In this document: positions 3,134 through 33,301 of the stretch, in pieces
Numbering within the stretch: the first letter of the stretch is position 1
Layout: the number at the start of each line of letters is the position of its first letter
DNA from: Persephonella sp.
Lineage (GTDB): Bacteria > Aquificota > Aquificia > Aquificales > Hydrogenothermaceae
Reading direction: 5' to 3'
Length of the DNA: 35,507 nt
Assembly: GCA_030949555.1 (NCBI GenBank)
Contig: JAUZSJ010000037.1
Location: 1 to 35,507, forward strand
The notes under the pieces: model-generated
Seen by the model: the letters and a program-made list of their open reading frames with translations, nothing else
What the model was told of the DNA's origin: nothing
Databases searched by the model: none
Program-made: the position numbers and the translations under genes

Positions 3134-5461
3134 TTATTCTTTACAAAACATAAAAAACCCATTTTTCATCTTAAATCCTGTTTCAATATCGTAATAATCT
3201 TCTAAATTTTCATAAGGAACATAATAAAATCCATTTTCTACTGGAGGAATATTATCCTGAACTGGGACAGATATGATGTAGTTGTAAAACTTTGATTTTA
3301 TACTGTCAAAAGCTTTTCTTCTTTCAAATATCTCTTTTATCTGCATAATCTTTTTGAACTCTTCCCAGACTTTGACAGCTTCTTTGTCTATCTGAACAAA
3401 AACATCAGATTTATAAGGTTCTTTTTCTATTAATTTAAAATCTGCAACTGATAAAATTTCATTAGGTTCTCTTTCTCCTGAAAACTTCAAAGAGTATAAA
3501 TACTCTAAAAGTTTATAACTTTCATCTTGAGACTTTCTTTTTAAAATAGTTTGAAAGTATTTATTTACAAGCTCTAAAACTTCTTTTTCTTCATACTCAC
3601 CTTTTACAAATATATCATCGGTAGCAGTTAAAAGAGTAGTATCATAAATATAACTGCTAAAAAGTCTGTTTTTCTCATCTAAAGTTTTAAAAACATAGAT
3701 TTCTCCTTGTTCTTTTTTTCCTTCTCTATTACATCTTCCGGCACTTTGAATTATGCTATCTAAAGGTGCAAAATCTCTATAAACAACATCAAAATCTATG
3801 TCAACTCCAGCCTCTACAATCTGGGTAGTTATTGCTAATTTTGTGTTTTCTTCTTTTAATTTTTTAATTCTTTTTGCTCTTTCAACTGGAACTATATATG
3901 TTGATAGAAAGACTGGATTTTTATCTTTAAACTGCTCATAAATTTTAGTTGCCTGTTTGATTGTGTTGGCTATAAATAAATATCTTTTACCTGTATCTAA
4001 ATTTATACCTTTCAAAAACTCATCTAAACTTTTTTGTTCTTTATTAACTACAATTTTATACCTGTTAAACTTTTGAAAATATTTAGTATGTCTAACCAGT
4101 GGAACTGTTTCATTTTCTTTAAAAATAAGTGGCTGTGTAGCTGTTGAAAATATTACATAAAAGTTAAATCTATTTGCTAAAGACTTTATAACTTCTTTAA
4201 TAACAAGCCAGTATTTAAAAGGTATTGACTGGATTTCATCTAAAATAATTATGCTGTTGGTAAATCTGTGAAACTTCCTTAAAGCTTTATTCTTGTATCC
4301 TATTAATGTATGAAAAAGCTGAATAAATGTTGTTACTACTATTTTACTGTTCCAGCCTTCAACTAAAATCCTTGAGCTGTCATAATCAAACTCGTTATCT
4401 TCATATCTGTATTTAAAATCTGATAGGTGGTGATGTTTTAAAATCCTCAGGCTGTCTGTTTTTATTCCATTTTCTTTTAACACATCTTCAAAAACTTTAA
4501 AATTTTGCTCAATAATTGACAAAAAAGGTAAAGAATAAATAATTTTTGGGTTTATACCTTTTTCTTTTTCTAACTTTTTAGACAGTTTTAAAGCAAATGC
4601 TAAAGATGTAAGAGTTTTTCCCATTCCAGTTGGAAGGGTTAATGAGTAGATTTTATTATTTAAATCAATCTCTTTTTCTAAAACTTCATTTAAAGCCTGA
4701 GTTCTTAGTTTATTTATTTCATTTTCTTCAAAATTTTTAGATTTTATAAAATTTTCAACTAAATTCTCTGGAAGATTTATTTCTTTAAATAATACATGTG
4801 AGCTTTTATCTAAAACAACATCTGATTTGTCCGCATCTACAAGATATGAAAAAAGTAAAGCTGTAGTTATATAGTAGTTAAGGTCTTTTTCCTTATTTAT
4901 TTTTCTAAAAAATCTCCTTAATTTTTTTAACTTTTGTTGGATTTCTTCTAAATTTATCTCTTCAAATGAAAAACTTAGTATCTTTTTATTATCCATCTGC
5001 AGGTTTTCAAAAAAGGCTTTAAATTTTTCTCTATCTATTGAGTTTATTTGATTTTTTAACACTTCTATCTCCTCATCTGACAGTATTAAATCTTCATAAA
5101 AGTATTTCAGGTCTGAATGGTGTCTTTTAGGCAGAACAAAGGATAAACCTGACAAAAATGGGCTTTCTATATTTTTGCTTTTTAGATATCTTTCTGTTAG
5201 ATAAAATCCAATAATACCTCCAAGTAATGAGTGTTTAGTTTCCGGTTTATTTTTAAAAGATTTTTCTCCTCTTATATATTCCTGAAAGAAGGAAGTAGAT
5301 TTTCCTATGTCGTGGGAGAAAATTATTATTGTCAAAATATCTTTTAATATTTCATCATCTATTTTCTCATTTTCAAGTAAAGATTTCCCTGTTTTATAAA
5401 CCTGAGATATATGTTTTTCCAAAAACTTATCTGGATGTGAAAGTAAGTCTGAAGGTTTCAT
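3134..5461 (-). CDS. cas3: CRISPR-associated nuclease-helicase Cas3 (HD + DExD helicase)
   Basis: The signature protein of type I CRISPR interference: it degrades target DNA after Cascade binding, using ATP. This 775-residue protein is intact. The N-terminal HD nuclease has SHDIGK at about 49-54 and RHHS near 113. The helicase has Walker A LPTGMGKT at about 276-283, the Walker B variant LDEIQS at about 407-412, SATQP further on, and motif VI QSAGRCNREG. DEIQ rather than DEAH, together with a handle of ATTGAAAC in the neighbouring repeats, suggests subtype I-B or a relative, though a subtype cannot be fixed without Cascade genes. It is codirectional with the array. No cas1, cas2, cas4, cas5, cas6, cas7 or cas8 occurs in the window, so it is an orphan effector here. 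It is the longest intact frame in the left half, with no sign of decay. Confidence 0.95.
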   Translation of the reverse strand: MKPSDLLSHPDKFLEKHISQVYKTGKSLLENEKIDDEILKDILTIIIFSHDIGKSTSFFQEYIRGEKSFKNKPETKHSLLGGIIGFYLTERYLKSKNIESPFLSGLSFVLPKRHHSDLKYFYEDLILSDEEIEVLKNQINSIDREKFKAFFENLQMDNKKILSFSFEEINLEEIQQKLKKLRRFFRKINKEKDLNYYITTALLFSYLVDADKSDVVLDKSSHVLFKEINLPENLVENFIKSKNFEENEINKLRTQALNEVLEKEIDLNNKIYSLTLPTGMGKTLTSLAFALKLSKKLEKEKGINPKIIYSLPFLSIIEQNFKVFEDVLKENGIKTDSLRILKHHHLSDFKYRYEDNEFDYDSSRILVEGWNSKIVVTTFIQLFHTLIGYKNKALRKFHRFTNSIIILDEIQSIPFKYWLVIKEVIKSLANRFNFYVIFSTATQPLIFKENETVPLVRHTKYFQKFNRYKIVVNKEQKSLDEFLKGINLDTGKRYLFIANTIKQATKIYEQFKDKNPVFLSTYIVPVERAKRIKKLKEENTKLAITTQIVEAGVDIDFDVVYRDFAPLDSIIQSAGRCNREGKKEQGEIYVFKTLDEKNRLFSSYIYDTTLLTATDDIFVKGEYEEKEVLELVNKYFQTILKRKSQDESYKLLEYLYSLKFSGEREPNEILSVADFKLIEKEPYKSDVFVQIDKEAVKVWEEFKKIMQIKEIFERRKAFDSIKSKFYNYIISVPVQDNIPPVENGFYYVPYENLEDYYDIETGFKMKNGFFMFCKE

Positions 5462-8775: not shown

Positions 8776-9954
8776 ATGATAAAACTTGAAAAAAATTACT
8801 GGAAGAAGTTTCCTATATGGAAAGATGTCTCAAGGTGGGACTGGGAAGACTGGAAATGGCAGATAAAAAACAGAATAAGGTCTATTTCTCAGCTTGAAGA
8901 AATATTAGGCATTGACCTGTCCTCTGCCAAAAAAGTGGAAAAAGTGTTCAGGACAGGAACTACTCCATACTATTTATCCCTAGTCAAAGACCTTTCAGAC
9001 CTGAGTAATCCTATTCTCAAACAGATACTCCCTTCCTGTGAGGAAATAGACCCACAAATACAGTCAGAAGGCAGTTTTGACCCTTTCAAAGAAGAGATTA
9101 TGAGCCCCGTTAAAGGACTGACTCACAGATATCCTGATAGAGTTCTTTTCAGGGTTACAACATTCTGCTCTGTTTACTGCAGACACTGTATGAGAAAAAG
9201 GATTTTTTTAGAAGAAGAAAGGGCAAAGAAGTATGAAGATTATATAAAAATGATTAATTACATCAGAGAAAATCCTGCCGTAAAAGAGGTTCTCATATCT
9301 GGTGGAGACCCATTAACACTTCCCAACAGAAAGTTAGAGTTTATATTAGAACATCTCAGTAAAATTGAACATGTTGAGATTATAAGAATAGGAACAAGGG
9401 AGTTGGTTGTTAATCCTTATAGATTTTTTGACGATGGGCTTCTTGAACTGTTAAATAGATACGATAAACTGTGGATTGTTACACATTTCAATCATCCAGA
9501 TGAAGTTACAGATATTGTCAAAAAGGCTGTTAGAAACATACTTTCAACAGGAACTCCAGTTTTAAATCAGGCAGTTTTGCTGAAAGACATAAATGACAGT
9601 CCTAACACAATTGAAAATTTGATGAGAAGCCTTCTTCATGTAAAGATAAAACCTTACTATCTATTTTACTGCGACCCAACAAAAGGGGTTTTGCATTTCA
9701 GAACCGACATTAAAAAGGGAGTAGAGATATTAGAGCATCTGAGGGGAAATCTGTCTGGAATAGGTATTCCAACCTATGCAGTAGACCTGCCAGGAGGATT
9801 AGGCAAAATTCCTTTAACTCCAGAATATGTGTTAGAAGAGACAGACGAGTATATACTCCTCAAAAGTCCCTACGGAAAGACAGTAAAAATAAACAGGCAC
9901 AATTCTGATATAATAAACAATCATACAAAAAAACAGGAGGATTTATGCTTATAA
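8776..9954 (+). CDS. kamA: Lysine 2,3-aminomutase (radical SAM, PLP)
   Basis: 392 residues. Radical SAM cluster motif CSVYCRHC at about 133-140 (spacing C-x3-C-x2-C), preceded by LTHRYPDRVLFRVT and followed by SGGDPLTLPNRKLE, all typical of KamA. It converts L-lysine to L-beta-lysine with a 4Fe-4S cluster, SAM and PLP. The W-rich N-terminus (DWEDWKWQIKNRI) and the length favour KamA over the shorter EpmB, which modifies EF-P. The start is ATG 8776, eight bases after GGGGAAGG; the track's earlier Met at 8740 lies inside the previous gene. It overlaps the aminotransferase start by ten bases. No beta-lysine acetyltransferase is nearby, so the product's fate is open. Confidence 0.88.
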   Translation: MIKLEKNYWKKFPIWKDVSRWDWEDWKWQIKNRIRSISQLEEILGIDLSSAKKVEKVFRTGTTPYYLSLVKDLSDLSNPILKQILPSCEEIDPQIQSEGSFDPFKEEIMSPVKGLTHRYPDRVLFRVTTFCSVYCRHCMRKRIFLEEERAKKYEDYIKMINYIRENPAVKEVLISGGDPLTLPNRKLEFILEHLSKIEHVEIIRIGTRELVVNPYRFFDDGLLELLNRYDKLWIVTHFNHPDEVTDIVKKAVRNILSTGTPVLNQAVLLKDINDSPNTIENLMRSLLHVKIKPYYLFYCDPTKGVLHFRTDIKKGVEILEHLRGNLSGIGIPTYAVDLPGGLGKIPLTPEYVLEETDEYILLKSPYGKTVKINRHNSDIINNHTKKQEDLCL

Positions 9955-11088
9955 AGGAAAGGCTGTTTACACCGGGACCTGTTCCTCTACCTCCACAGGT
10001 TATAAAAGCCCTTGGACAGCAGATTATCCACCACAGAACACCAGAGTTTACCCATATATTCAAAGATGTAAGGGAAAAATTGCAGAAACTGTTAAAAACA
10101 GAAAGGGATGTTATTCTGTTTTCTTCATCCGGAACAGGGGCTATGGAAGCATCTGTTTTAAACTTTTTCAGGAAAGGTGACAGGGTTTTAATAATAGAAA
10201 TGCAGGTAAGTTTGGACAGGGATGGAAGGAGATAGCCTCACAGTTTGAGCTGAAAGTAGTTGATTATGAGATAGAATGGGGCAAAACATACGATAAAGAC
10301 AGAATAGTTGAGATAGTTGGCGAGTTTCCAGATATTAAAGGAATATTTGTCCAGCAATCAGAAACTTCCACAACAACATATCACGATGTTAAGTTTTTAG
10401 GTGAGATTTCTGCAAAGCTTGAGGACTGTATATTAGTTGTTGACGGTATAACCTCTGTAGGGGTTTACGAAGTTTATCCAGAGGATACAGGAATAGATGT
10501 TCTTGTTACAGGCTCCCAAAAAGCATTGATGCTTCCACCAGGATTATCTGTCCTTTACTTTAGCGAAAAGGCTGAAAAAAGACTATCCAAAAGTAATATA
10601 CCAAAGTATTACTTTGACGTTGCAAAGGAAGTAAAAAACAGCAAAAAGGTCAGACTGCATACACCCCCGCCATAAATCTGATTATTGCCCTGAAGGAAAG
10701 TTTAAACCTTATGCTTGATGAGGGTGTTGAAAACCTTGCAAAAAGACATCGGATACTTGCTCAGGCAACAAGAGAGGCTGTAAAGGAAATAGGTCTTAAG
10801 CTTCTGTCAGAAAGTCCTTCAAACTCAGCCACAGGTGTTTATGCTCCTGCAGGAATAGATGCTGACCAGCTGAGGGAAAAGTTGTTAGAATTAGGCTTTA
10901 GAGTTGCAGGAGGACAGGACCATCTAAAGGGAAAGGTTTTTCGCATAGCCCACATGGGATACTTTGATTTTAACGACGTTATACAGGTTATATCAGGATT
11001 AGAGATGGCACTATACAAAATAGGACTGAATGTTGAACTTGGAAAAGGTGTCATAAAAGCTCAGGAAGTAATAGTAAACAACATCTGA
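9945..11088 (+). CDS. Class V aminotransferase (alanine/serine-glyoxylate type), two frameshifts
   Basis: A PLP-dependent aminotransferase of the AGXT/serine-pyruvate group. Pieces in three frames join into about 382 residues. FTPGPVPLPPQV and HHRTPEF are near the N-terminus, FSSSGTGAMEAS binds phosphate, VVDGITSVG holds the PLP Asp, and TGSQKALMLPPG holds the Schiff-base Lys. The breaks are a missing base near 10200 (IE-NAGKFGQGW restored) and another near 10647 in an A run (NSKK-GQTAYTP restored). The start ATG follows a perfect AGGAGG. A histidine phosphatase follows directly. In Hydrogenobacter, relatives of both genes serve the phosphorylated serine pathway, so a phosphoserine or serine role is plausible; plain alanine-glyoxylate transamination is the alternative. 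Confidence 0.88.
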
Positions 11089-11101: not shown

Positions 11102-11741
11102 ATGGCTGTAAGGATTATATACGTAAGACATGCAGAAAGCCTGTGGAATCCTATAGGAAGATATCAGGGAAGGCTTGACCCTGAGCTGTCAAGAAGAGGG
11201 CATAAACAGGCAGGAACTTTTAGCCCTCACCCTCAAGAAATATAAACCTTCAGCCCTTTACTCAAGTCCTTTAAAAAGAACTTACATGACCGCTGAATAC
11301 ATATCTAAAGAGTTAGGTCTTGAGATACAAACAGACAAGGACATTATAGAGATAGACCACGGGGAATGGTCTGGAATGTTAGTTGAAGAGGTAAAGGAAA
11401 AATACCCAGATATGTTCCGTCAGTGGCTTTATGAACCGGAAACAATCAAATTTCCCCATGGAGAAACACTGGTTGATGTTTATAACAGGGTTAAGAGATT
11501 TCAGGAAAGGATGCTTGAAAAACACGATGGGGAGACAGTAATTGCAGTATCACACACAGTACCTATAAGGGCATCTTTTGTTGTAGGTCTTAATCTGCCT
11601 CTGGCAAAATTCTGGAGCTTTGGATGTGATAATGCTTCTTACTCAATACTGGATTACGAAAAGGTAAGACCTATCCTGTATAAACTGAACAACACATATT
11701 TCTTAGGTGATTTGTTTATTCCTGCATTAGATGCACTGTGA
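11102..11741 (+). CDS. Histidine phosphatase (phosphoglycerate mutase-like), one frameshift
   Basis: The start ATG at 11102 follows GGAGAGAGAGAA. The N-terminus reads IIYVRHAESLWN with the phospho-acceptor His, then GRLDPELSRRG. One extra G near 11213 breaks the frame; without it the sequence runs QAELLALTLKKYKP into the listed ORF. SSPLKRTYMTAE, DHGEWSG and AVSHTVPIRA (second catalytic His) complete the superfamily set, giving about 212 residues. Cofactor-independent family members from Hydrogenobacter thermophilus were shown to be phosphoserine phosphatases rather than mutases, and position beside a class V aminotransferase fits that role. It could also be a broad-specificity phosphatase such as an alpha-ribazole phosphatase. 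Confidence 0.85.
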
Positions 11742-11751
11742 TGGGGAAGTG

Positions 11752-13009
11752 ATGAATATAGACTTACCAGCAGGCGTAAGAACATTCAGCAGAGCTGAAA
11801 CCTTTGAGATAAAACAGATAATAAAAAAGATAAACAATGTTTTTGAACAGTGGGCTTATGAAGAGATAAAGTTACCACTTTTTGAATATCTCTCTGTCCA
11901 CAGCAGAGGATTAGACGAGGGTATAATAAGCAAAAGCTTTAAAATCGTTGATAGAAGCAGTGGAGATATACTGACACTGAGGGCAGATTTTACCGCACAG
12001 ATAGCACGATACTTTTCCTCTTTGAAGAAAAAAGAACTACCTAAAAGATATTACTACACAGGCACAATATTCAGATATTCACCTCCGAAAGGAGATAATC
12101 TGTGGGAAAAAGTACAGACAGGTATTGAACTGATTGGTTCAAACAAAATTGAAGCAGATGCTGAAATAATAGCAGTAGCAAGTCAATCCCTGAAAGATTT
12201 AGGTATAGAAGACTTTCAGATTGATATAAACAACACACAGATTTTTAACTTTTTAAAAGGATATCTCAATCTGTTAGAAGAAGAATATGCAGAACTTATG
12301 GAGTTTATAAGAAGAAGAGAAATTTATAACCTGAAAAAGTTTGTCAATAGCAAAGGCATAACAGGGAAGATTAAAAAGTTTATAACAGAGATTCCTGCTT
12401 ATCAGGGGAACATATCACTGATAAACAGGTTGTCCCGGGAGTTCAAAATAAAAGGACTGGAAGAGATTTTTAATCAGCTCAAACAGATATACAGCATACT
12501 GAAAGAGTATGGTCTGTCAGACAGAATTATGTTTGACCTTGGAGAGACCAAAAGAGATTTCCTATTACACAGGTATTGTTTTTGAGATTTTCATTAAAGA
12601 TTTCTCAAAACCTGTAGGTCAGGGTGGAAGATATGACAATCTCATATCAAAATACAATGGGAATGTGCCAGCCACAGGATTTGCCTTTGACGTTCTGAGT
12701 ATATGGGAGTATATGAAGGAAAACAAACTTATAGAAAAGAAAAATTACAAAGATTTTTTTATTATTGATATAACCTCTGATAAGTCCCTTGCATACAAAA
12801 TAAGTAAAAAGCTCAGGGAAAAGGGTTATAAGGTAGGAAGAGACATTATAGATAGAGAAATTAAAAGCTCTATAAGATTTGCTTTTAACAACAGATACAG
12901 AAAAGTGATAGTTATTGGACTGGACAGCACTGAAAAAAGTATATATATTTATTCAACTGAAGAAAGTTTTGAGAAAAAAAGCGTTCAGGAATTTTTGAAA
13001 GAAGTATAG
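11752..13009 (+). CDS. hisZ: ATP phosphoribosyltransferase regulatory subunit, one frameshift
   Basis: A histidyl-tRNA-synthetase-like regulatory partner of the short HisG, for the first step of histidine biosynthesis. LPAGVRTFSRAE, LRADFTAQIAR (HisZ form of motif 2 lead-in) and FRYSPPKGDNLWE are visible. One extra A in the run near 12551 breaks the frame; without it FDLGETK-EISYYTGIVFE is the normal class II core, then GQGGRYDNLI. The whole is about 419 residues. After the core a further domain (FFIIDITSDKSLAYKISKKL … KVIVIGL) looks like the anticodon-binding fold that most HisZ lack. The start is ATG 11752, not the upstream Met at 11731, since GGGGAAG lies just before it. hisG is not in the window. 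Confidence 0.85.
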
Positions 13010-25683: not shown

Positions 25684-28600
25684 ATGGAAAAAAAAGGCTG
25701 TTCCCCTGATATACAAGAATATGTGTCCAAACTAGGGAGAGGAGTATCATGAACATCTGAAAGACTGTTTAAAGGTCTTGTATGTGAAAACTGCCTTCCT
25801 GAAGAGGTAAAAAGAGAAGAACTGTGTGAATTTTTAGGATACGGCAGATTTACAGAGATTTGCAGTTTGTGGGAAAAGGTCAGGGACTTTAAACAGTTTT
25901 TCGGAAAAATAATAAAAAATAACCTGTGGTCTATACAGGAAACATGGGCTACCAGATTTTTTATGAACATATCATATGCTCTGCTGGCACCAACAGGAAT
26001 AGGAAAAACAACATTTGGTCTTGTTCTTTCAAAATATCTGAAGGAAAAAGAAAATAGAAAAGCATATCTGATTTTCCCGACACAGATGCTTGTTAATCAG
26101 GCTTACGAAAGGCTTATTTCCTTTGGCGTTTCAGAAGAAGATATACTGGCCTACACATCAAAATTCGCCAGTACAAAGAAAAAACAGGAAGAGCTGAAAG
26201 AAAAAATAAAAAATAACGATTTTCAGATACTTTTAACAACAACTATGTTTTTATACAAAAATATAGACATTATTCCAAAAGGTGAGTATGCCCTTGTTTT
26301 TGTTGATGATGTGGACAGTGTTTTAAAAACAGCAAAGAATATAGACAAAGTATTAATGCTGTTAGGATTCTCTCAGGAGGATATTGATTATACCCTGAAG
26401 TTTATAACATTTAAACAGAACCTGTTTAAAAAAGGACAGCCTTCAGAAGAAGATTTAGAGCTTTACCAGCACTGGCAGTCAAAAATCCAGAAAATTGCAG
26501 AAAAAAGAAAAGGTGTCCTTATAGTCTCATCAGCAACATCAAATCCCCGCTCAAAAAAGGTTAATCTGTTCAGGGAGCTTTTAGGTTTTGAGGTGGGAAG
26601 ACCATCCCTTACACTGAGAAATATAGAAGACGTGTATGAGAAGCCAGAAAAGGTGTGGGAAAGGAGCATAGAAGTTATAAAAAAGTTAGGAAAAGGCGGT
26701 CTGGCCTTTCTGTCTTCATCAGAGACAGTAGAAACACTGGAAAAATATGTGGAATTTTTAAATAAAAACGGGATAACTGCTGTTTCCTATCAGGATTTAA
26801 TGGACAGAATAGATGAGTTCAGAGAAGGAAAAATTCAGGTTGCCGTAGGTTTTGCCAGTTATAGAAACCCCCTTGCAAGGGGAATAGACCTGCCTGACGT
26901 GATTAGATATGCAGTATTTGTAGGAGTTCCCAAACTACAGTTTAACATCAGGTTTGAAGAAGAGTTTATACATCTATACTACTTCCTTCTCTCTTTAACA
27001 CCTTTCCTTGCAAAGAAAAAACTGATAGACCCTATTCAGATAAAACAGCTTTACGATTACATAAACTATCTTAAGATTTACGCCTTTATTCCTTCTGAAA
27101 GGTTAGAGCCTGAAAAATTAGAAAAAATGAGGAAAATACAGCTATCTGTGAGAGAGATGATAGAAAAACCTGAAATCTTTGCAGCTGTCCAGCAGTCTCC
27201 AGAAATAACGCTAAAAAAAGAAGAGGACAGCTTTGTGCTGACAACTGCAGACGTTACAGGATACATTCAGGCTTCAGGAAGAACATCAAGACTTTATGCA
27301 GGAGGTTTAACGAAAGGTCTTGCCTACCTGCTGGTAGATGACGATAAAGCATTCTACTCCCTTCAGAAAAAGGTAAGATGGTTCAGCGAAGACATACAGT
27401 TCAAAGATGTCAGGGAGATAAATCTTGATAAGCTGTTAGAAGAGATTGATAGAGACAGGGAAAAGGTAAAAAAAGTTCTCTCAGGAGAGATGATTACAGA
27501 GGAAAAACAGTCATTCCTTACAACCGTTGTTGTTGTTGAATCTCCAAATAAAGCAAGAACAATAGCAAACTTTTTTGGCAAACCCCTAAGGAGGAAACTG
27601 AAAAATCTTGATGCCTATGAGATAGCCATAGGAGAGAGATTTTTAACGATAGTTGCAAGTAAAGGACATGTTTTTGACCTGAATAAGGAGGAAGATTACT
27701 TTGGAGTCAGAAGAAACAGCTCTTTCATTCCGGTATTTGAACCAATTGATGAAGGAAAAAATCAGATTATCCAGAGTATAAGAGAGTTAGACCTTGAGGT
27801 GAACGAGATTTTTATAGCAACAGATCCTGATACAGAAGGGGAGAAAATAAGCTACGACTTTACCTGAACTCTCTCCCCTACAACTATAACATCAAAAGGG
27901 CAGAGTTCCATGAAGTGACAAAATGGGCGTTTCTAAATGCTGTAAACAACCCGAGAGAGTTTGATACAGACCTTGTAAAGGCACATGCTTAGTTAGAAGA
28001 GTGGCAGACAGATGGATAGGATTTACCTTAATCCCAGTAGATGCAGGCAAAACTCCACAGACACCGGCTGTCTGCAGGAAGAGTCCGGTACTAACCTGTA
28101 TTATTAGGAGTGGATTATAAACAGAACTGACGAAGCAAAACAGAAGATAGCTGTGGTGCGTTGGAGATAAATGGTTATCCTTTGAGTTTCAGTTTGAAGA
28201 CAGAAAAAATGGGAAATGGTTTTATCGGCAAACTTACAGTTTGTGCCGGTAGAGGAAAAAGGAGAAAAAAAGAAGAGCAACCTGTTTGTCAAGCCTTTCA
28301 CCACAGACCTTATGCTGTCAGAGGCAGGCAAGGGAGCTCAGGTGCTTCGCCTCAAGAAACAAATGCAGCTTGCACAGGATTTGTTTGAAGCCGGCCTGAT
28401 AACATACCACAGAACAGACAGTTTCAGGGTTTCTGAGGCAGGGGTTTTGTGGCAAAGGAGCATATAATAGAGAGTTTTGGAGAAGAATATCTAAAAATAA
28501 GAACATTTTCAACGGCAGGTGGAGCCCACGAATGTATCCGCCCAACAAAACCTATGGATGCTGATGACCTGAGGTCAACAATATTCACAATGAACATTCA

Positions 28601-29175
28601 GGGGATAACAAACAGACACATAAAACTTTATGACCTTATATTCAAAAGATTTATAGCTTCCCAGATGAGAGAAACAGTTATTGAAAAAACAGCCTATCAG
28701 GTAAGAGCTTTTGATGAGACAGTTGAAGAGGAAATTCCAACAAGAATTGTCCAGCATGGTTATGACCTTGTTCTCCCTGTAAAAGTATATACTATTCTCA
28801 CAGGAAAAGTGGAAGTGAAAGGCAAAAAATCATATCACCTTAAACCAAAGGTTCCTTATTACACATTTGCAACAGTGATTCAGGAAATGAAAGAAAAAGG
28901 AATTGGAAGACCATCCACATATGCTGTCACCGTTCAGAAACTGTTAGACAGACACTATATTATTGAAAGGAGAGGATACCTGTTTCCAACAAAGCTTGGG
29001 AGAGCGGTTATATCTCTTATAAAGAAAAGGGAAGATATATACAGATTTGTAAATGAAAACTTTACAAAACAGTTAGAAGAGATTATGGATAGAGTAGAAA
29101 GGGGGGAAGCAGACTATCAGAAAGGGATTAGAAAACGTGTTCACACAGCTAAAGGAAAAAAAGCTAATTCTTTAA
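25684..29175 (+). pseudogene. rgy: Reverse gyrase, broken by about nine indels
   Basis: A helicase-like plus topoisomerase IA fusion that introduces positive supercoils, a marker of hyperthermophiles. The joined gene is about 1160 residues, the normal size. The ORF track starts only at 25867; the true start is ATG 25684 (RBS AGGAGAGAGAG), where removing one A from eight gives MEKKAVPLIYKNMCPN, the first zinc-finger half, then SERLFKGLVCENC. The helicase part has APTGIGKTTFG, VFVDDVDSV and SATSNP. The topoisomerase part has VVESPNKARTIANFFG, ATDPDTEGEK (Toprim), GLITYHRTDSFRVSEAG with the catalytic Tyr, ECIRPTKP and GIGRPSTYA. Breaks cluster at 25690-25760, 27860-28240, 28440 and 29120. The restored stop is TAA 29173. 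Archaeal origin is typical of bacterial rgy genes. Confidence 0.92.
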
Positions 29176-29302
29176 AGTGCGGTTAGGAGAATATGCATTA
29201 CGAAGAATGAGAGAAATATGACCAACATCATTAATTATATTTCCGACATTACATAATAATATTAAAATTATTAAGCTTAGATATAGATTTTGGAGGATCC
29301 AT

Positions 29303-29648: not shown

Positions 29649-30601
29649 AGTTCGGAAATAAAAAAAGCCTCCAGTTTCAGCTAAAATTAAAAAGTCAAAA
29701 GACTGGAGGTTTCCAAAATTGCTCGTAATAAAAACATACTGCCAATTAGATGACTTTTACAGGCTCTTTGAAAAACATCTTAAATCGCAAACTCTTTCCG
29801 AGAGTCTAACAAAGGCAGAAAAGCTAATCTAATTATACCCGAAGTAGCTACCATACTCGTTCTATTTCATTTGTCAGATTTCAAAACCTCAAAAAGTTTT
29901 ATAAAAAACATCTATCAGTTAATATGAAAAACTATTTTCCAGATTTGGTTAGTTATAACAGATTTGTTGAGCTAATTCCTTCATCCATATCACTACTTCA
30001 AGCATTTTTAAAATTTATAATCAGCTTAAATAGTTTTATTTCCTTTGCTGACTCTACAAAACTGCCAATATGTCAAAATAGCAGAATACATTCTCACAAA
30101 GTATTTAAGGGATTGGCACAAAGAGGTAAAGATAGTGTTGGATGGTTTTATGGTTTCAAACTACATCTTGTTATCAATGAGAAGGGAGAGATACTTTCTT
30201 TTGATTTAACTGCTGGGAATGTAGATGATGGAAAGGCTTTAAAGAAAATGATTAAAAGCTTAAGAGGTAATTATTATAAAAATATTCGGTGATAGAGGTT
30301 ATGTTTCACAGAAGCTGTCAGAGAAGTTTTTATCAGAAGGTATTGAGCTTATTGCTAAACCAAGAAAAAACATGAAATGTAGGATAATTTTATATACAAA
30401 AAGGGCATTGATAGAATCAGTAAATAATATTTTAAAAAATCGATTAAAGATAAATCACACGAGGCATAGGTTTCCTGTGAATTTTATAGCAAATTTGCTT
30501 CAGGTTTAGTTGCTTATCATTTTAGAGAAAACAAACCTGAGATTGATTTATTATCTCAATGTTAAAAGTAATATCCTTTTTATTGATTTAATTTCCGAAC
30601 T
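29649..30601 (+). mobile_element. IS982-family insertion sequence
   Basis: About 950 bases, bounded by the perfect inverted repeat AGTTCGGAAAT at 29649-29659 and ATTTCCGAACT at 30591-30601, with weaker identity beyond. It encloses one transposase. An internal hairpin close to the left end, CCTCCAGT at 29668 and ACTGGAGG at 29702, can block outside transcription from entering the transposase, a common insertion-sequence feature. No target duplication is clear: the flanks are CCAACCCG and GACGCTAAA. It lies between the TRASH gene and the WYL gene and marks the left border of the defence-type island. Confidence 0.8.
29719..30565 (+). pseudogene. IS982-family DDE transposase, several frameshifts
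   Basis: The transposase starts near 29719 (TTG) as LVIKTYCQLDDFYRLFEKHL. Joined frames give LTKAEKL-NLIIPEVATIL, then MKNYFPDLVSYNRFVEL, FADSTKLPICQNSRIHSHK (first Asp), GWFYGFKLHLVINEKGEIL, IFGDRGYVSQKL (second Asp), ALIESVNNILKNRL (Glu) and NFIANLL-SGLVAYHF, ending TAA 30563. That is the full IS982 set. At least four indels separate the parts. Either the copy is dead or the assembly here is poor. The DDE residues themselves are unchanged. Confidence 0.85.
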
Positions 30602-30619: not shown

Positions 30620-31681
30620 ATGATTAAACCTTACATAGAGATACTTAAATACCTGTTTGAGAAAAGTAGATTTGTAAAAACAAGAGATTTACAGAGAGTT
30701 TTAGAAAATCAAGGACTGCTTACAAAATCCTATCACTCAAATAGAAGACTGCTACAAAAATATTTAGAAAACCTTGAGTATGAAGGATACATAATGAGAA
30801 GATACGAAAACATAAAAGGAAGGAAATCTCAAGAATGGAAAATAAACCCAAAAAGCTTTCCTAAAATTGTAGGTATATCTGAAAAGGAGTTTATATCACT
30901 TCTTATAACTACCAGCTTTATGCCAGATGATTACAAAAACTTAAGCTTTTTGTCTGATATACAGAATATTATTAACAGAACATATTTTGAAATTACAGAC
31001 GAAAAAAGAGAGATTTTAGAAAATGCATTTAAATATGTTCCAGAGTTTCACGAAAAGTTTTCAAAAGATAAATTCCTATCTACTTGATAATATATTTAAA
31101 GGAATTTTGAAAAAGTATATCTGAAACTCTTATACAAAGACAAATGGCTAAAAGTAGCCCCTATAAAAATATTTTTGTATCAAGGAATTTTATATGTATC
31201 AGTAATAGATGAAAATAACAAGCACAAAATACTAAAATTTAGCTGTATAACAAACATAATAAAAACACAGGAAAAAGCCCAAGAATTTTTTATAAAAAAA
31301 TACAGAAACCTAAACTTTGGATTTGAAGATGAAAAACCATTTGTTTTTGCAGTAGATATTCCAGATTGGTATTTAAGATGTGAGAACATTCAAACAACAA
31401 AGCTAATAAACACACAGTTTTATATAGAAGAAAACGGAGAATATATTAAAGTTTTTCTAATCGGTTATACCGGCTGGAGATTTCCATCAAGAATGTTTGT
31501 GCCACATATTGAAAAGATTTACAAACCAGATGAAGGAATATTAGAAACAGCAAAAAAGTTTAAAAAACAGATAAAACAGATAGACGAAAAAATTAGTTTT
31601 TCTTTAAATGAAAACTTAAAAAGGTTTAATGAGTTTTTAGACAATTTTAAGTATTACTTGGAGCAGAGGAAAGGTTATTAG
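30620..31681 (+). CDS. WYL-domain transcriptional regulator, about two frameshifts
   Basis: Two listed ORFs (30620-31087, 31175-31681) join through 31085-31175 as SYLLDNIFKGILKK … LKLLYKDKWLKVAPIKIFLYQGILYVSVID, giving about 350 residues. The N-terminus is a winged helix (VKTRDLQRVLENQG … YLENLEYEGYIMRR). The middle WLKVAPIKIFLYQGILYVSV matches the WYL fold. The C-terminal part (EYIKVFLIGYTGWRFPSRMFVPHIEKIY) is the WCX-like extension. Regulators of this make (BrxR and CapW are examples) control anti-phage systems. It is followed by an operator-like site and a Fic gene, so it may govern that gene. It starts 19 bases after the insertion sequence. Confidence 0.75.
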
Positions 31682-31705: not shown

Positions 31706-31807
31706 TGTCCCGATTGAAAAAAATTGCATTTTCGGGACAGTTGCTATAGTATGATATGACGTTATATTTAAAGAATAGTGTAATATAAATGAAAATTTTC
31801 GGGACAG
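31706..31807 (+). promoter_or_regulatory. Repeat-bearing promoter/operator upstream of fic
   Basis: TGTCCCGA at 31706 and TCGGGACA at 31732 form an inverted repeat. The 12-mer TTTTCGGGACAG occurs at 31729 and again, exact, at 31796, just before the Fic start. Promoter-like boxes lie between: TTGCAT at 31724 with TATAGT at 31745. The layout suggests a repressor binding three half-sites and looping. The WYL regulator upstream, or Fic itself through its DNA-binding tail, is the likely ligand. Confidence 0.6.
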
Positions 31808-31811
31808 AATA

Positions 31812-32770
31812 GTGGATGAAAAATTAATTGTAGAAAGGAAAAAACTGTTAGACAAATTAGGGTCAGTTCCAGAGCCTGTAATAGAAAATAAAGAATGGCT
31901 TTACCTGCTTGAAGAAGAAACGAGAAATTCTATACTTATAGAAGGATACTTTTTAAATGAGGAAGAGTTAGAACAGGCATTAGCAGGAAATAAACCTGTT
32001 TCTAAGTCTCAAGAAGAAGCAATTAAGTATTTTAAGACAGCAAAATTTATATATGGTCTTGCTTATGAAAATTTTAAATCAAATGAACTTTTGTTTGGTA
32101 TTCCCTTAATCAGACAGATAAACAAAGAACTTGGTTTTAGCGGTGAATTTAGAAAAGAAAAAATTAAAATAGGAGGAGCAAAATTTGAACCTCCAGAAAA
32201 CTATATAGAAGACTGGGTAAGAATTTATATTGATTATGTTCATAATTTAAATGAAAACTTTTTTAATAGATTGTGTGTATCACACGCATTTTTTGAAGAG
32301 ATACATCCATTTATAGACGGAAACGGTAGAACTGGAAGGATACTTCTAAACTATATATTAATAAGCAACGGATATCCATTGGTTATAATAAAAGGCACTG
32401 ATAAAAAGAAGCAGCTCTACTACAAAGGATTAGAAGAATTAGACAACCAGTTATCTGATTTATTTGTTAAATACGAAAATATACCACCTGATAAACAGGA
32501 AGTTTCCAAAAGTTAAAAGAAGCAAAATCAGATATTTTAAAAAAACTTATACTTGAAGCATTGAGAGAAAGCTTAGATAGACTAATAATTGCAAAACATA
32601 AAGAGAAAGGAGCAAAGCTTGAGCCTGTAAGTAAATTACTAAAAGGTTTAGGATACTCTCCAGAAAGCACAAGACAGTTAATAAAAAGAGGCAAGATAGT
32701 AGCTGTGAAAATAAAAAAAACATGGTATTCTACAGAAGATTTAATAACACTGTTCTTAGTTTCATATTAA
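31812..32770 (+). CDS. Fic-domain AMP-transferase with HTH-like tail, one frameshift
   Basis: A Fic protein: transfers AMP (or another nucleotide part) to a target protein Ser/Thr/Tyr. The active-site motif HPFIDGNGRTGR is at about 167-178. An N-terminal inhibitory helix has the (S/T)xxxE(G/N) motif, SILIEG at about 37-42, so the protein is class II and self-inhibited. A frameshift near 32510 ends the listed ORF at VSKS; the next frame gives FQKLKEAKSDILKKL through a C-terminal winged/excisionase-like segment (LLKGLGYSPESTRQLIKRGKIVAV … WYSTEDL), for about 319 residues. The start is GTG 31812, directly after an operator-like repeat. No antitoxin partner is needed for this class. Confidence 0.85.
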
Positions 32771-32794
32771 ATCCAGTTTATAGACACTCCCTTA

Positions 32795-33075
32795 TCAAAG
32801 CTTTAAATCCTTATATATATCCTTCCTTCTTCCTACTCTCAGTATAAGAATTATCAGTTTATCATCTTCTACTTCAAAAATTGCTCTGATTTTTCTTGAA
32901 ATCATGAATCTATAATAGCTATCGTATCCTTGCAGTTTCTTTACTTTTTTGTTTTTTGTAAAAGCTCAAAATTATCTGCAAGATATTTCAATTTTTCGGC
33001 TATAAAAACTCTCTCATCTACAGAAAACTTTTCTAAATCTTTTTCGGCAATTTCAGAAATAAGAAGCTTATACAT
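32795..33075 (-). CDS. RelE/ParE-type toxin, one frameshift
   Basis: Not in the ORF track. On the minus strand ATG 33075 starts MYKLLISEIAEKDLEKFSVDE; after KLKYLADNFELLQKTKK one base is missing in an A run, and the next frame gives VKKLQGYDSYYRFMISRKIRAIFE and VGRRKDIYKDLKL, stop at 32795. YRFMISRKIRAIF is the RelE/ParE core strand pair. The size is about 93 residues. It overlaps the antitoxin stop by eight bases, the antitoxin-first order usual for this group. It would cut mRNA on ribosomes (RelE) or act on gyrase (ParE); which one cannot be told. Confidence 0.75.
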
Positions 33076-33301
33076 CTATATTTAACCTTTTGAAAACTTC
33101 ATCTGCTTCTTTTACTTTTATTTTGCCTTCTTTTATACCTTTACTTACTTTTTCTGCTATAATCCCATCAATATAATCAAGATAAAAGTCCAGAGCTTTT
33201 TCTACAATTTCACTTTGAGGAATTTTCAAAATTTTTGATATATTTTCCAACTCTTTAGCAAGACCTTCTTCCATACTTATTAATTTTTTAACTGTTGCCA
33301 T
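33068..33301 (-). CDS. Ribbon-helix-helix antitoxin of the RelE/ParE-type pair
   Basis: 77 residues. ATVKKLISMEEGLAKELENISKILKIPQSEIVEKALDFYL is a ribbon-helix-helix DNA-binding fold, which should repress the pair's own promoter. The charged C-terminus (KIKVKEADEVFKRL) would bind the toxin. It overlaps the toxin gene by eight bases. The gene is intact. Confidence 0.75.
   Translation of the reverse strand: MATVKKLISMEEGLAKELENISKILKIPQSEIVEKALDFYLDYIDGIIAEKVSKGIKEGKIKVKEADEVFKRLNIDV

Follow-up and report, generated by a model that had tools for sequence, protein, structure and literature searches.

The three CGGGACA half-sites that lead up to the Fic gene of the window (the whole stretch of 35,507 nucleotides of Persephonella DNA analysed here) serve, with a probability of about 0.84, as an operator through which a Fic AMP-transferase represses its own gene. 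The reading is built on the conservation and spacing of the sites in relatives, on a motif that changes with the fic allele and on a C-terminal tail with a predicted DNA-binding fold. The roles of most bacterial Fic enzymes are unknown, and an operator that can be read from sequence offers a direct way into the question of when such a gene is expressed.

The promoter region and the Fic protein

The first-pass annotation had described three half-sites, with an inverted repeat and an exact 12-base direct repeat around promoter-like boxes; all of these are present exactly (Table 1). The centres of sites 1 and 2 lie 27 bp apart, and together they place an inverted pair of the type TGTC[C/A]CG-N19-21-CG[G/T]GACA at the gene's own promoter, beside the promoter boxes. 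Judged from the window alone, the triplet and the 12-base repeat are weak evidence: a 7-mer triplet with two direct copies and one inverted copy arose in 4281 of 20000 dinucleotide shuffles of the 133-bp region (21%) and a 12-mer direct repeat in 71 of 20000 (0.4%), while the box pair, at 9/12, is by itself not above shuffle expectation. Relatives keep only the 7-base core of TTTTCGGGACAG, and it is from conservation in relatives, rather than from window statistics, that the half-sites draw their significance. Within its own genome the inverted pair of the CGGGACA type occurs once, at fic. The genome search proposed in the first-pass annotation returned two further exact matches to TTTTCGGGACAG beyond the window (on contigs C29 and C46), both in coding-like DNA and without an inverted partner at the correct spacing.

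Table 1. Positions of the half-sites, promoter boxes and genes around the fic promoter
Feature	Position	Strand	Remark
WYL-type regulator gene	30620..31681	+	frame-broken near 31070-31120
Half-site 1, TGTCCCG, inverted	31706..31712	-	exact match in window
12-base direct repeat TTTTCGGGACAG, copy 1	31729..31740	+	exact
Half-site 2, CGGGACA	31733..31739	+	N20 after site 1; 1 bp before -35-like box
Sigma-70-like boxes TTGCTA-16-TATATT	31741..31768	+	between sites 2 and 3
12-base direct repeat TTTTCGGGACAG, copy 2	31796..31807	+	exact
Half-site 3, CGGGACA	31800..31806	+	N60 after site 2; 5 bp before fic start codon
Fic, N-terminal and catalytic part	31812..32516	+	GTG start at 31812
Class II inhibitory motif SILIEG	31929-31946		in window Fic
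Fic catalytic motif HPFIDGNGRTGR	32304-32339		in window Fic
Fic C-terminal tail	32498..32770	+	shifted frame; stop 32768-32770
Predicted winged-HTH part of tail (GYSPESTRQLIKRGK...W)	32618..32734	+	AlphaFold, Foldseek, weak Pfam HTH_17

By its sequence motifs, the encoded protein is a Fic AMP-transferase of class II. The catalytic signature HPFx[D/E]GNGRxxR appears as HPF.DGNGR.GR in 16 of 16 aligned orthologs, the Pfam Fic family matches at 1.6e-15 in one of them (L014), and in the inhibitory motif (S/T)xxxE(G/N) the residues S40, E44 and G45 are invariant throughout the alignment (A1). The aligned orthologs are each encoded in a single intact frame of 313-343 amino acids. The tail, which had been called HTH-like from the letters, is modelled by AlphaFold as a long helix followed by a winged HTH (pLDDT 90), so that a C-terminal DNA-binding domain on Fic is present by prediction. 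Its Foldseek matches are to BldC, the excisionase RdfS and Xis of phage and are weak by E-value (0.22 at best, with a probability of 0.95), and the Pfam HTH_17 match in the Fic orthologs is likewise weak and below that family's cut-off.

Conservation of the triplet

A protein search across 136 genomes of the phylum detected Fic relatives in 27 of them, from which 21 upstream regions were extracted, 17 of family f1 (the window included) and four of family f2. The first-pass annotation had made its proposal depend on conservation in homologous loci, and the triplet was found in all 17 of the aligned f1 upstream regions. Close f1 orthologs have the form TGTC[C/A]CG-N19/20-CG[G/T]GACA-N60-62-CGGGACA, and those about 65% identical have TGTC[C/A]CG-N20/21-[CG]GTGACA-N49-51-[CG]GTGACA. 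Four of the latter group (L024-L027) have one deviating base each, and a frame-broken fic copy in G067 has three in its triplet; half-site 1 keeps the form TGTC[C/A]CG across the f1 loci, except that G078 and G067 each deviate at a base. The half-sites of 15 f1 loci (the 17 copies less near-duplicates) share a mean pairwise identity of 0.85, compared with 0.45 for the spacers and 0.36 for the flank upstream.

Identity to the window Fic is about 52% in the four f2 orthologs, which keep the triplet layout with a different motif, TGTTRCG-N20/21-CGAAACR-N49-CGAAACA, the last site lying within ATGCGAAACA and overlapping the ATG start codon. In all of the aligned loci the spacer between sites 1 and 2 is N19-21, and site 3 is at the start codon. 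Site 3 follows site 2 after N60-62 in the CGGGACA group but after N49-51 where the motif is CGTGACA/GGTGACA or CGAAACA; the difference of about 11 bp amounts to one helical turn.

The promoter boxes of the window fall where boxes can be read by eye in two other loci of the CGGGACA group (L014 and L019), TTGTTA/TTGTCA-17-TAAATT/TATATT, beginning 1 bp after site 2. In L022, L023, L024 and L040 the GTGACA of site 2 itself stands 17 bp before TATCTT or TATAAT, again by eye, and in several CGTGACA/GGTGACA loci site 2 could thus serve as the -35 box, as judged by inspection rather than by statistics.

An action at the level of RNA, in which the inverted pair would form a hairpin and the third copy compete with it, by attenuation or by masking of the ribosome site, would make use of the complementarity, in the window, between site 1 and the two direct copies, and of the position of site 3 at the ribosome-binding site. 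We consider it very improbable, since the promoter boxes, situated after site 2 and before site 3, would leave sites 1 and 2 off the transcript; moreover, changes at half-site position 3 are uncompensated in L018-L021 and L040, and that same position is non-complementary in the f2 pair TGTTRCG/CGAAACA.

Specificity of the motif and orphan triplets

When the 136 genomes were searched for the inverted pair with no mismatches allowed, the CGGGACA type was found in 19 places, 11 of them promoters of fic orthologs. One more is a second copy, at a contig end, of the G092 promoter region (L186). Four are followed by a fic stub (L187 in G076, L189 in G080, L190 in G098 and L188 in G111), and two (L191 in G034 and L192 in G071) are solo complete triplets, correctly spaced, at which no fic was detected. 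The last lies in an array of short repeats that looks CRISPR-like by eye (L083, G087:C19), the unit of which, GTTGAAATTGTCCCGAGTTATGAGGGCATTGCGAC, holds TGTCCCG by coincidence. In the G076 and G098 stubs the catalytic core has been deleted, leaving N-terminal codons fused to tail codons out of frame, and the deletion junctions of the two differ. The whole, correctly spaced triplet thus survives even where fic has been cut short, has suffered an internal deletion or is missing. For the f2 type of pair, TGTTRCG/CGAAACR, there were five matches in the 136 genomes, four at fic promoters; the fifth, in G132, falls within a long coding frame and was rejected as a promoter.

The motif tracks the fic allele rather than the host. 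G087 has two fic copies, each with a different form of the motif, and two genomes of one genus, G068 and G069, have CGGGACA-type and CGTGACA-type sites, respectively, that match their fic types. A regulator encoded elsewhere, unlinked to fic, that recognises CGGGACA and acts in trans has in its favour that unlinked regulators can serve conserved operators, and that binding by Fic is itself a prediction. Such a regulator seems unlikely to us, as the mismatch-free search of the 136 genomes showed the inverted pair in the promoter of no further gene, the fic remnants and the two solo copies apart, and as the motif differs according to allele both within one genome and within one genus. The tail residues vary together with the motif in a suggestive way, if not cleanly: the region of the predicted recognition helix reads SPDSIREL in the f2 Fics and S[PS]xS[TSAG]RQL in the f1 Fics, and Thr at the variable helix position goes with CGGGACA but occurs also in L024, which has GGTGACA.

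Neighbours of fic and the likely binder

The first-pass annotation had placed a WYL regulator directly before Fic, which is correct, and had left control to the WYL protein, to Fic, or to both. Of that proposal, the Fic half has strong support: the sites travel with fic and change with its subfamily, and Fic has the predicted winged-HTH tail. WYL-type proteins are often regulators of transcription, and in the window the WYL gene is on the same strand as fic and ends 24 bp before site 1, which is what would speak for its product binding the sites and controlling fic. That this is so we hold to be extremely doubtful. WYL homologs and fic reside in largely different genomes: of the 24 that have a WYL homolog, G000 and G069 alone have a fic match too, and outside the window the two are together only in G069, on separate contigs. 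A WYL gene adjoins fic in none of the other loci examined, the fic loci have no recurring neighbour, none of 29 WYL-homolog loci has the inverted pair, and the window copy of the WYL gene is frame-broken (the G069 ortholog, 88% identical, is intact). WYL control is unsupported because the homologs lie elsewhere and without the pair, and we judge the gene a chance neighbour of fic. Just upstream of it, the sequence at 29924-30560 has the look of a broken transposase, a possible reason for the present position of WYL next to fic.

Among 16 fic loci, ORFs of at least 100 amino acids gave no neighbour gene that recurs across independent loci; the few cross-matches are at differing distances and on differing sides. 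A toxin-antitoxin module resembling Phd-Doc was also considered and rejected, no conserved antitoxin gene adjoining fic: among ORFs of at least 80 amino acids within about 1.3 kb of fic, nothing recurs apart from near-identical loci and one ORF shared by the window, G081 and G088. Small ORFs downstream of fic, at 32770-33301 on the minus strand, resemble a toxin-antitoxin pair by eye, and an ORF related to this region lies near fic in G081/G088 (60.9% over 69 amino acids).

With no conserved neighbour and a motif that follows the allele, Fic itself is the remaining conserved candidate for binding the sites and, since their spacing is fixed whatever genes adjoin them, it most likely does so through its own tail. 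In such an autorepressor, the winged HTH at the C-terminus would make the contacts with the half-sites, a Fic dimer spanning the inverted pair of sites 1 and 2, next to the -35 region or across it, and one more protomer or dimer occupying the helically phased site 3 at the ribosome-binding and start-codon region. Once Fic is abundant, transcription would stop, and perhaps early elongation or the start of translation as well. Binding, repression and stoichiometry, like any coupling of DNA binding to AMPylation, are here what we infer from these patterns, and the odd number of half-sites counts against the scheme in that it does not fit one simple dimer.

Comparison with known Fic-HTH systems

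The best reading, by analogy, likens this Fic in its mode of action to CccR of Yersinia pseudotuberculosis, with a three-site operator layout instead. CccR is a Fic-HTH protein that represses its own promoter via AGATAATCAT-N26-ATGATAATCT, as established by reporter, gel shift, footprint and calorimetry; the inverted repeats lie near the -35/-10 elements and the dimer recognises widely spaced half-sites (PMC9755527). Both combine, here by prediction, a Fic domain and a C-terminal HTH in one protein, and the inhibitory Ser/Glu pair described for CccR has its counterpart in the inhibitory motif here. CccR, however, has one inverted repeat with 10-bp arms and N26, in contrast to 7-bp arms and N19-21 here, and the phased third half-site at the start codon is found here and not in CccR. 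CccR is also a secreted protein encoded beside a type VI secretion locus, while no recurring neighbour turned up here. The tail here resembles, by prediction, winged HTHs of the BldC/excisionase type.

The available sections of a report on CbFic2 of Coxiella burnetii (PMC10628234) describe it and SoFic of Shewanella as class II Fics with a C-terminal winged HTH, as here. CbFic2 binds DNA through the winged HTH, and DNA raises its AMPylation activity; the DNA used was random, and those sections describe no own-promoter operator for CbFic2 and state that DNA binding by SoFic had not been shown. Against the NCBIfam SoFic cut-off of 550 bits the Fics analysed here fall far below, at 38-39. Kinch et al. 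(2009) foresaw a possible role in the regulation of fic expression for HTH domains fused to Fic (PMC2686095); theirs was a prediction from domain architecture, whereas here the operator itself is found, following fic. In the type II toxin-antitoxin system Phd-Doc, a Fic-fold protein is coupled to a DNA-binding part through which the operon is autorepressed (cited in PMC2686095); inhibition motif, enzyme and predicted DNA-binding tail are here united in one polypeptide, with no recurring partner gene.

CccR was the one case of such self-repression found in the literature searched, and the present reading would extend it to many genomes of the phylum and tentatively beyond. A scan of genome contigs with alignment A1 gave, among the matches listed, distant Fics only. 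Upstream of tailed fic genes, inverted repeats of the TATCGGATA type were found in the Bacteroidota loci L175, L176, L183-L185 and L096, some of them partly degenerate; these adjoin sequence resembling the Bacteroidota -7 box. The deltaproteobacterial locus L095 has ATATGGTAT-N17-ATACCATAT, and L106 a related repeat. Among the matches listed, 10 tailed and 37 short Fics were compared; upstream inverted repeats reached p<=0.05 against shuffles in three of the former (median p 0.21) and one of the latter (median p 0.79), a modest and suggestive enrichment that we regard as a lead.

It is possible, though we would put it well short of probable, that Fic-HTH proteins form a broad class of one-gene autorepressors, with operators that co-evolve with the tail and DNA occupancy that sets the AMPylation state. 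The class would then include the phased three-site operator of this phylum, the TATCGGATA type in Bacteroidota and the ATATGGTAT type in Deltaproteobacteria; the enzyme's own promoter would be its off- or on-switch, and operators would outlive the enzyme. Matched pairs of tail and operator are available for asking whether DNA binding controls AMPylation.

Assembly state and other features of the window

The window assembly is 55% complete, and there are frame breaks in both the WYL gene (30620-31087/31175-31681) and the Fic gene (31812-32516/32498-32770). As intact Fic orthologs exist, these breaks may be assembly errors; real decay may be the alternative. Further apparent splits are seen at 9945-11088, 11731-13009 and 25867-29186, and several split genes in a genome of this completeness suggest errors of assembly. 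At 3134-5461, on the minus strand, an ORF of 775 amino acids resembles a Cas3-type helicase-nuclease, with HD and DEAD-type motifs recognisable by eye.
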